64,000 nucleotides of DNA from Anthostomella pinea (Eukaryota > Ascomycota > Sordariomycetes > Xylariales > Xylariaceae). Where the stretch lies: NCBI GenBank assembly GCA_963556695.1, contig CAUWAG010000008.1:1860001-1924000 (forward strand), given 5' to 3'. Within the stretch, counting starts at the first letter, position 1, and the number at the start of each line of letters is the position of its first letter. This document shows positions 29,431 to 32,400 of this stretch, piece by piece. Under the pieces are notes generated by a model that worked only from the letters and a program-made list of their open reading frames with translations, was not told the origin of the DNA and searched no databases. The position numbers were made by a program, and so were the translations under genes.

Positions 29431-32400
29431 GCACGACGAAGTCGACTCGAAACGGGCCATCACCTCACACTCAACTCTACTTCCCTTCGTCATATGAATC
29501 AATCATATACGTTCTCACCATCTACTCATCCTTTTAATACTCGTTTCCATCTCTCGCTGCATCCCGCTCACGGTGACCTGGAGCCACTGTTGAGGGGACA
29601 TTATATAATCCAGGGGGGGGAATCGGATACCACGGCTACTAGACATTTCTTCGCATAGATCGGGCAACCGACAGTACTTTCGGACGGACGTTCGGGGGAG
29701 GGGACCTTAAAATGAGGAATATATTGCCTTTGTTTTTCTTGCTTGCAGAAGGTGTCTTGATCGAAATACAGGGACAAGACAGGACACACTACGGGATCCC
29801 AGCACCGGAAGACGTGATTGCGCAAGCCAGGCAGACAGAAGAGCCTCCGCGTCTTCTTCCCGACTCATCGAACATCTCCTTTGTCGCTATCGAACATACC
29901 TACCTATATATCCGTTTTCCGGTCCATCGTTTACTATACCTATTTGCTAGCTGGAGTACATATTCAAAAGGCGCGTGCGTGTGTTACTCGGCTGATTTAC
30001 ATTCACCCCACTGGAAAATGGGAGCACAGCGGCTGGCCTGAAGCTGGTGTTTCGGTGTTTGTTTTTCGTGTTTCTGATCTCCTTTCCCCCCCTATTGCGC
30101 TTTGTGTTTCGGTTGAGATATTGGGCTTTGGGCGGCGGCACATCTTGGTACCAGAATGCGAATCATCAGATTGCGGGGTTCTTTTTTTTTTTTTTGGGAT
30201 TTGGCTATATAAGTTATACACTAGCTCGGGATACCTCAATATCCGCGGTTCGCTCAAGCGAAGGACGAGCACGAAGAGAAGGGGAGGGCGCTGGATAGTC
30301 ATTATGTTGAGGGTCAACGTCCCTTGAAGCTACGTGTAATAACTAGACACGGAGACTCTTTGACACACCCTCGATCATATCAAGCGAGTGGCTAAGATTG
30401 CCCATAAGATGGAGGCATGCAGGCACCAGCTGACAGCTTGGAAGAGACGGGTACCTAGTAGGGCTGACATGCCCAAGATATTAAAGCTTGGAGCTTATAT
30501 GAGCAATCAAATCACCATTCTTATAATATCAGTATTCAGCATTTGCATACGATCACCTGCATGTCATGGATAAGCAGGAGACAGGGTCATAGGCATTGAG
30601 ATTGCTGGGGTTGCTGCACGGGTGGCCTGGTTATCCAAGAGTCTAGGCGTAAGGACAACACCGGCACGAGTGTCGCAGAAGAGCAGCCGCCTAGTGGCAT
30701 CCAAGTGTTTCTCCTCCTGTCCTGGTTTCTTCCTCCAAAAGCGCCACGGTTCACCATTAGCACTTTGAAGAAGTTTTGTCTCAAGCCAAAACATCCACTC
30801 ACATCAGATATCAGTCGTGCGTTAGCCAGGGTCCGAACCAGCACCTAGACAGAATGTTGACTGTCATAGCAGCTATCATGTAGTTGCTAGGTCGCAAGAG
30901 ATGTCCAGCTCGTGGCTGCCGGTCACCACATGGAGCAAAGGAGTTGGTGCGCCTTTGAGATAGGCACGCTTACTCGATTGTTGGTTTAGCGGGAACAAAA
31001 ACAGGCATAAGCAGCGGTTGACAGCCCACGATCTTGCCTGGTGCTTCTTTTCAAAATGAATAAGTAACTTCCAGGTACAACTCACTTTGCGGGATATTAC
31101 AGCAGGCCTACAGACCTTCTACTTAGCAAGCTTGGGCATACACTCTACAGGTAGCGAATCAATCAGTCCGCTACCAACAACCGCAATTGATGCATTGACA
31201 TCTTCTACCAAAAGCGCTGCTTCTATACGTGTAGGTATGCTGACAGGTGTTAGCAGGACTGAACCACAAGAAGCGTGCACCATTGACTATGGTACCTGCT
31301 CATCGGCTGTGTTTGCAGGTTCATTGTTAGCGATTCAGGAGGTCAAGACGTATGTAGTATTCATTGCGTACAGAAGGAAAAGGGGTGGGAAGTAAGCCAG
31401 GAGACATGTTAGGCTCAACAAAAATATATGAACCCATCCTACTTGCTCACCTCTTATGCTATGGAACTTGGAAGGAGTTGTGATCATGGAAATCAGTCAA
31501 ACGTTGTGATACAGCAATTGAGGTTAATGCAAAAAATAGGCAAAATAGTAGGTCACACCGAGGATCGAACTCGGAACCTTGTCCGAATCTCGGAGAGGAC
31601 TGTGAAGGACATGCTAGAGTATTTGTTAGTATGTAGTATGATTAGGCATAATGATTGTTGACTTACTCATAACCATTAGACCATGCGACCGTGGTAAAAT
31701 TTCCTTTATGTGTAATCATGTACCGTACCGCTACCGGAGAGGTCGTGGGGCAACTGTCGGTCTCACTTCTAAGGCGCCGGGGCTACGCGCAGACCCATTC
31801 AATGCCGGATTCTCCGAGAAAAGCCGAGGCACAGAGCACGGATGGCTGCAGGCCACTCTGGTTCCACGGATTGCTTACATCACCTTGGTGAATTCCATCC
31901 GATCACGAAGACATGTGTCTGTTGAGAAGAACCTTTAATCCAGAGTCAGGAGATGAAAGGGTTTTGCGGAGTTTTCGTCTTACCAGACATGTGGTTGAAA
32001 GGACAATATGCATGGTCGCCTGAGCCGAAGGGATGTTCCAGGAGTGACTGACTGGGAGAACCACCCACAGAACGGCTCTATCGCCAATCAACGGCAGACT
32101 TCGTTCCCAATTTCATCTCTTCTGGTCTTCTCCTGGAGCAATAGATGGTAGTGCCCCTTTTAAAGACATCGTCTCTCTAGTATGTAGCTTGTGTTGCCTT
32201 CCAAGAGCTGCCGTATTGAGGTTTGTGCCTCCAAGAGAGACAGACAGTGCTGCCGTAGGTGTCCGGCCATCCTACAGAAAGGCCATACTGGAAAGCAGGC
32301 AGCTCGGTGCTATACCATTAGAGCCACGAAGTGTATTGGGCGTGTTTACTACTATATGTTGCGACCAGGTGCTATCAGTTTGAAGCTCAGCGCACACATG

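Follow-up and report, generated by a model that had tools for sequence, protein, structure and literature searches.

The transfer RNA (tRNA) gene for valine with anticodon CAC, tRNA-Val(CAC), in a stretch of 64,000 nucleotides (nt) on contig 6 of the ascomycete Anthostomella pinea, a member of the Xylariaceae (the whole stretch is called the window in the following) is interrupted by two inserts. One is a canonical tRNA intron of 15 nt at position 37/38. The other, 53 nt long, lies in the D-arm and, judged from its letters, is very probably a spliceosomal intron of the U2 type within a functional nuclear tRNA-Val(CAC). It further seems likely, with more reserve, that the sole Val(CAC) tRNA of A. 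pinea needs two successive machineries, the spliceosome and then the tRNA endonuclease; it would be the first case of a spliceosomal intron in a nuclear tRNA. We infer the removal of the insert, the machinery and the order of splicing. A spliceosomal intron had been proposed for this gene in the original prediction, and the proposal gains support from a second Val(CAC) gene whose insert has drifted, the failure to find an uninterrupted copy, apparent introns in a U6 gene and four messenger RNA (mRNA) introns in the window.

The layout of the gene is summarised in Table 1. The arms of a Val(CAC) tRNA, the 15-nt insert and the 53-nt insert between tRNA positions 24 and 25 were found with exactly the coordinates and letters previously claimed, and the three exons measure 24, 13 and 35 nt. 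Likewise the GTAAGT start and the CTAG end of the insert, the restoration of the D-stem by its exact removal and the T-runs behind the gene could all be read directly. The ACTAAC motif is present near the insert end as well, but its position needs correction: the hexamer begins 17 nt before the end and not about 14 nt, with 12 nt following the branch A. The D-stem pairs G10-C25, T11-A24 and C12-G23 are restored only by GT...AG excision. The insert ends are unable to slide, as the insert starts with G while the next exon opens with C, and it ends with G while the exon before ends with A. Hence the D-stem (GTC/GAC) is restored by one cut only, and this cut is an exact GT...AG excision. With both inserts removed, a full cloverleaf of 72 nt results; together with intact A and B boxes and a T-run after the gene this is what characterises a functional nuclear tRNA-Val(CAC).

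Table 1. Features of the interrupted tRNA-Val(CAC) gene (positions within the window)
Feature	Position	Strand	Remarks
tRNA-Val(CAC) gene	31551..31690	minus	140 nt with two inserts; letters read directly, ARAGORN, fold
Exon 1, tRNA positions 1-24	31667..31690	minus	5' strand of acceptor stem, A box, D-arm to A24; identical in second gene
D-arm insert, 53 nt, between 24 and 25	31614..31666	minus	GTAAGT...ACTAAC...CTAG; very probable U2-type spliceosomal intron
5' splice site GTAAGT (putative)	31661..31666	minus	GTGAGT in second gene; matches fungal GTRWGT
Branch-point motif ACTAAC (putative)	31625..31630	minus	predicted branch A at 31626, 12 nt to insert end; same in second gene
3' splice site TAG (putative)	31614..31616	minus	same in second gene
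Exon 2, positions 25-37, anticodon CAC	31601..31613	minus	read directly; same in second gene
Canonical 37/38 tRNA intron, 15 nt	31586..31600	minus	ARAGORN i(38,15); other 15-nt sequence in second gene
Exon 3, positions 38-72, T-arm and B box	31551..31585	minus	read directly; same in second gene
RNA polymerase III-type T-runs 3' of gene	31531..31545	minus	T4 at 31545-31542, T6 at 31536-31531; T6 similarly placed after second gene

According to a survey of fungal U3 introns (PMC5832005), almost two thirds of canonical donors follow the pattern GTRWGT; RCTRAY is given as the branch motif, and the distance between branch and acceptor is 6-36 nt in fungal introns, with 15 on average in U3. Both the window insert and the 59-nt insert of the second gene show the corresponding U2-type features, namely a GTRWGT donor, an RCTRAY branch 12 nt before the end and a YAG acceptor (TAG). 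In base-shuffled inserts all three signals fell into place in 0 of 400,000 cases per insert, and the product of the separate signal frequencies amounts to 6.6e-8 for the window insert and 2.8e-7 for that of the second gene. On both strands of the 64 kilobases the pattern GTRAGT..ACTAACA..YAG has the tRNA insert as its sole match (20 shuffles: mean 0.05, maximum 1). The strict pattern GTRAGT..CTAAC..YAG occurs at 4 places in the window (20 shuffles: mean 0.8, maximum 2), one of which is an intron of the ribonucleotide reductase gene.

Three proteins of the window match A. pinea entries (RIX1 at 100%, the ribonucleotide reductase small subunit at 99% and a major facilitator superfamily (MFS) transporter at 100%). 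With the help of annotated A. pinea proteins, four mRNA introns of 55, 72, 72 and 55 nt, which rest on gene predictions, were placed in three genes of the window. These use GTGAGT in three of four cases, and all four have CTRAC and CAG. With 53 and 59 nt the tRNA inserts are in line with the introns of this genome, which measure 55-72 nt in mRNA and, as inferred, 49-55 nt in U6.

A non-canonical tRNA intron, cut by tRNA endonuclease and sealed by ligase as in Cyanidioschyzon merolae, would make the GT-AG signals coincidental; we consider this unlikely. Introns in the D-stem do exist in eukaryotes, since the tRNA-Ile(UAU) of C. merolae is reported to have D-, anticodon- and T-arm introns (PMC9602550), and the canonical 37/38 intron in the same A. 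pinea gene implies that the endonuclease would act on the RNA anyway. A strict bulge-helix-bulge (a 4-bp central helix with two flanking helices, each with at least 2/3 pairs) is not found at the junctions of the D-arm insert in either gene, while 634 of 5000 random places have one. This leaves the endonuclease alternative of the original prediction without support from the strict motif, though the control is poor: at the canonical 37/38 sites of both genes no more than 3 of 4 central pairs are formed, and these sites fail the strict test as well. Moreover, each of the two drifted copies has all three spliceosomal signals, for which the shuffles give a chance of ~1e-7 per insert.

The second Val(CAC) gene is located on another contig (C14:2414028-2414173, contig 14). 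The original prediction had proposed a comparison with other Val(CAC) copies of the genome, and this copy turns out to be interrupted in the same manner: its 72-nt body is identical, its insert of 59 nt sits at the same tRNA position (24/25) and has drifted, and its 15-nt 37/38 intron differs in sequence. Aligned with each other, the two D-arm inserts agree in 43 of 53 bases, with an additional insertion or deletion of 6 nt. GTAAGT in the window corresponds to GTGAGT in the second gene; ACTAACA, CTAG and the 12 nt after the branch A are common to both. Upstream of the genes a match is weak and local, and the short trailers with T6 look related. Under a simple independent model, the probability of 0 changes in 72 exon bases at the rate of the insert is ~2.9e-7. 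The simplest reading of these letters is that the tRNA bodies are under selection while most of the insert is not. Gene conversion could keep the exons alike, but would have to stop at both insert edges. The insertion would be older than the duplication of the Val(CAC) gene.

An intact Val(CAC) gene elsewhere in the genome, which the original prediction had named as part of the counter-evidence, was looked for by BLAST and by pattern searches, and these detected none. With the joined form as query, BLAST yields these two genes only, in pieces, and the 21-mer across the joined exons occurs at 0 places in the genome with up to 3 mismatches. The pattern of the 5' half, again with up to 3 mismatches, leads to the same two places only. 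A 3'-end pattern matches 16 places in comparison to 10 for the control; 2 are exact and both are Val(CAC), and the other 14 are unlike Val(CAC), with at least 5 mismatches in 17 to the A-box half (all 16 checked by script, 9 viewed). The 16-mer spanning insert end and anticodon is found exactly only in the two Val(CAC) genes, and with 1 mismatch at 2 places versus 3 for the control. These searches could overlook a Val(CAC) gene whose body is very different. The genome itself is reported as a Nanopore assembly at ~80x with a BUSCO value of 98% and 199 tRNA genes predicted by tRNAscan-SE (PMC10763133); the assembly comprises 53.7 Mb in 16 contigs. For Val(AAC), a yeast-derived pattern matched one place with 2 mismatches, no better than the reversed control. 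The exact pattern in prokaryote contigs and the exact and gapped patterns in viral contigs gave no match, as expected for a fungal gene.

These results bear on the idea that the gene is a dead copy of a tRNA gene which received an insertion at random. According to a review, insertions in the D- or T-arms of eukaryotic tRNA genes mostly affect a single member among many synonymous genes and are therefore presumed to mark pseudogenes (PMC4090602). In A. pinea, however, both Val(CAC) genes found are interrupted and an uninterrupted one was not found, the exons show no difference, unlike the inserts and flanks, and cloverleaf and promoter boxes are intact. A pseudogene would be expected to have a decaying body and an intact synonymous gene elsewhere; instead, the bodies are identical and the search for an uninterrupted copy gave none. 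As the exons are unchanged while the inserts drift, a dead copy, which the original prediction had kept as an alternative, is opposed by the comparison of the two genes as well as by the failure to find an uninterrupted copy, and we regard it as very unlikely.

The insert is short, has a defined insertion point and is present twice, which would also fit a mobile element or introner-like insertion that sits in the tRNA by chance. Target-site duplication is not seen, both inserts occupy the same tRNA position in paralogous genes, and a BLAST search with the whole second gene (E up to 10) matches the two Val(CAC) genes only, so that the inserts have no detectable relatives. The many similar genome copies typical of introner-like elements were not found in this search. 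A mobile element with target duplication had been put forward as a case that would speak against a spliceosomal intron; with neither a duplication nor further copies by BLAST, it appears extremely improbable. An introner origin is in any case compatible with a spliceosomal intron, and the mobile-element explanation concerns the origin only. Apart from these explanations, a group I or II intron was considered and rejected, the insert being too short and an Rfam match in the window lacking. The loop motif of Ire1-type cleavage was not seen at the junctions by eye.

The genome appears to contain a further small RNA gene with mRNA-type introns. U6 is transcribed by RNA polymerase III (Pol III), and U6 introns are said to have been studied by Canzler et al. 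in 2016. A U6 search of the A. pinea genome leads to four places (L030, L031, L032 and L033). L032 (contig 16:2508026 onward, locus position 1501) reads as a U6 in four exons with three apparent mRNA-type introns of 49, 55 and 53 nt. Exon 1, GATACAGAG, is followed by an intron of 49 nt (GTAATA..CTGAC..CTAG), exon 2, AAGATTAGC...GATGACAC, by one of 55 nt (GTATGT..ACTAAT..ACAG) and exon 3, GCTCAATCAAAGA, by one of 53 nt (GTAAGC..TCTAAC..TTAG); the last exon starts with GAAGC. Without intron 1, L032 agrees with 28 of 28 Rfam core consensus letters, in comparison to 3 mismatches in L030, 6 in L031 and 5 in L033. One of its three donors fits GTRWGT and two of its three branches fit RCTRAY, and the tRNA inserts are closer to the consensus. 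If L032 works, A. pinea already passes one Pol III RNA through the spliceosome. In L032, a B-box-like GGTTCGAACC lies 142 nt downstream of the point where the last exon begins. L030, L031 and L033 are diverged, U6-like and intronless, with a tandem repeat of ~20 bp preceding L030; they may be retrocopies or diverged genes.

Based on these data, the following pathway is proposed for the tRNA. Pol III would transcribe the gene from the A and B boxes, both of which are located outside the insert. The gap between the boxes measures 101 nt in the window gene and 107 nt in the second gene, which is long, yet within Pol III tolerance. Recognition of GTRAGT and ACTAAC by U1, U2 and U6 would follow, with A24 being joined to C25. 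The D-arm insert would probably leave first by means of the spliceosome and the 15-nt 37/38 intron second by the tRNA endonuclease. Joining A24 to C25 alone would restore the D-stem and thus the tRNA body from which the fungal endonuclease is thought to measure. We suggest the spliceosome to act first because the insert breaks the D-arm and the fungal endonuclease is reported to touch the D-arm via Sen54 (PMC4090602).

The folding of the different forms was evaluated in silico. For the 72-nt form without both inserts the minimum-energy structure is the cloverleaf, with a centroid that lacks the D-stem. The cloverleaf is not found by minimum energy in the 140-nt and 146-nt precursors of the two genes. 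Folded alone, the D-arm insert is structureless (0 kcal/mol).

Several observations weigh against a spliceosomal intron in this tRNA or against the proposed order of splicing. First, the two genes are paralogues and not independent events. Conservation of the splice signals (16 of 17 bases) is not significantly better than that of the remaining insert (27 of 36 bases, Fisher p 0.14), so that the match to the signals itself carries the argument. A looser intron pattern occurs at 28 places in the window; as 20 shuffles gave 18.8 on average and at most 28, it is not clearly enriched. Among the U6 loci, the intronless L030 has the top Rfam score with 65.5 bits, the sole one above the cut-off, while L032 reaches 39.9 bits with its introns in, so that either of the two may be the working U6. 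Moreover, the 87-nt forms of both genes, from which the D-arm insert is removed and the 37/38 intron is kept, do not yield a minimum-energy cloverleaf. This is no help for the proposed order, which therefore rests on the reported Sen54 contact. The terms 'RNA-seq' and 'transcriptom' have 0 occurrences in the main text of the genome paper (PMC10763133). Finally, a third tRNA with a GTRNGT..CTRAY..YAG cassette before the T-arm was not found among 120 surveyed loci. These consist of 99 regions holding the first 100 of 330 places with the exact B box GGTTCGAATCC in the genome (14 places for the reversed control) and 21 regions from a tRNA-family search, in which 63 of 2100 candidates were scored. 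Beside the two Val(CAC) loci, the cassette matches only at L089, where it sits upstream of the tRNA.

Genes of this type can be overlooked by software. ARAGORN makes no call on either Val(CAC) precursor and reports no tRNA in the window; the same holds for Rfam at the gathering threshold, where no tRNA is found in the window and the tRNA model matches neither precursor. After removal of the D-arm insert, ARAGORN identifies the window gene as tRNA-Val(cac) with a 15-nt intron, and the 72-nt form as tRNA-Val(cac). The second gene without its D-arm insert is mislabelled as Thr(cgt). In the tRNAscan-SE 2.0 paper, the detection of non-canonical introns is described with regard to archaeal tRNAs (PMC8450103). 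Fungal genes of such type could escape routine annotation, and both precursors are a warning that tRNA finders can miss genes interrupted in this way.

Spliceosomal introns exist in ascomycete ribosomal RNA, where the spliceosome likewise acts on a non-coding RNA, though not on a tRNA. Fungal telomerase RNA is similar in this respect (PMC4299874) and different in not being a tRNA; in Schizosaccharomyces pombe the reaction is reported to correspond to the first splicing step and to make the 3' end (PMC4299874). Also comparable are the introns in fungal U6 small nuclear RNA and U3 small nucleolar RNA, which share a short GT-AG intron, the fungal branch motif and a small structured Pol III RNA as host. 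U3 is described as being made by Pol III, and in 2017 it was stated that no small structured RNAs other than U3 and U6 were known to contain an intron frequently (PMC5832005). Unlike U6 and U3, the host in A. pinea is a tRNA that also bears an endonuclease-type intron and whose D-stem is broken, so that one RNA would be served by two machineries.

With regard to tRNAs, C. merolae and algal nucleomorphs are comparable in having an extra D-arm intron beside the one in the anticodon loop (PMC9602550, PMC4090602). The D- and T-arm introns of C. merolae are supposedly removed before the anticodon intron and by a machinery other than the spliceosome (PMC9602550). They are described with a bulge-helix-bulge (PMC9602550), whereas the A. 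pinea insert has GT-AG ends and a branch motif and the strict motif was not found. Compared with the canonical introns of nuclear tRNAs at 37/38, of which the 15-nt insert is one, the D-arm insert differs in its position at 24/25 and in its spliceosomal signals. No mention of a tRNA gene with a spliceosomal intron was found among the open-licence papers covered by the literature search. Spliceosomal introns in small Pol III RNAs are known; here a putative one is present in a tRNA.

In the usual teaching tRNA introns, handled by endonuclease and ligase, and mRNA introns, handled by the spliceosome, belong to separate worlds. If our reading is true, the spliceosome can assemble on a tRNA precursor made by Pol III and leave it again, and a spliceosomal intron can occupy every copy found of a decoding tRNA. 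GTG decoding would be tied to spliceosome activity, with a Pol III tRNA placed in the spliceosome's care. The gene would moreover serve as a test bed for the gain of spliceosomal introns outside mRNA genes, and for studying the order in which a tRNA folds, is spliced and is modified.

Some further observations were made along the way. The closest relatives of RIX1 come from Camillea and Biscogniauxia (64-67%). The 120 surveyed loci were sorted by script into 61 with a tRNA-like short interspersed element (SINE), 31 with a tRNA-like body and 28 with neither. Inspection by eye showed that 3 of the 31 tRNA-like bodies are SINE variants (L125, L131 and L135), and that the 28 loci without body include tRNA genes missed by the script (L088 and L089) as well as SINE pieces (L073, L106 and L126). 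The tRNA-like SINE, GGCCGTATGGCGCAATGGTCAAATGCGC...GGTTCGAATCCTGC, fills 61 of the 99 regions (L036, L037, L039 and 58 more) around the first 100 of the 330 exact B-box places.

Groups of near-identical tRNA bodies are present as well (L068/L118, L079/L084/L085/L090/L092 and L086/L087). The canonical introns in their anticodon loops differ in sequence or presence, which indicates that in such copy groups the bodies are kept while the introns drift. Mitochondrial-looking tRNA clusters recur with equal scores on several of the contigs 1, 2, 9, 13, 15 and 16, which suggests recent mitochondrial insertions or assembly joins.

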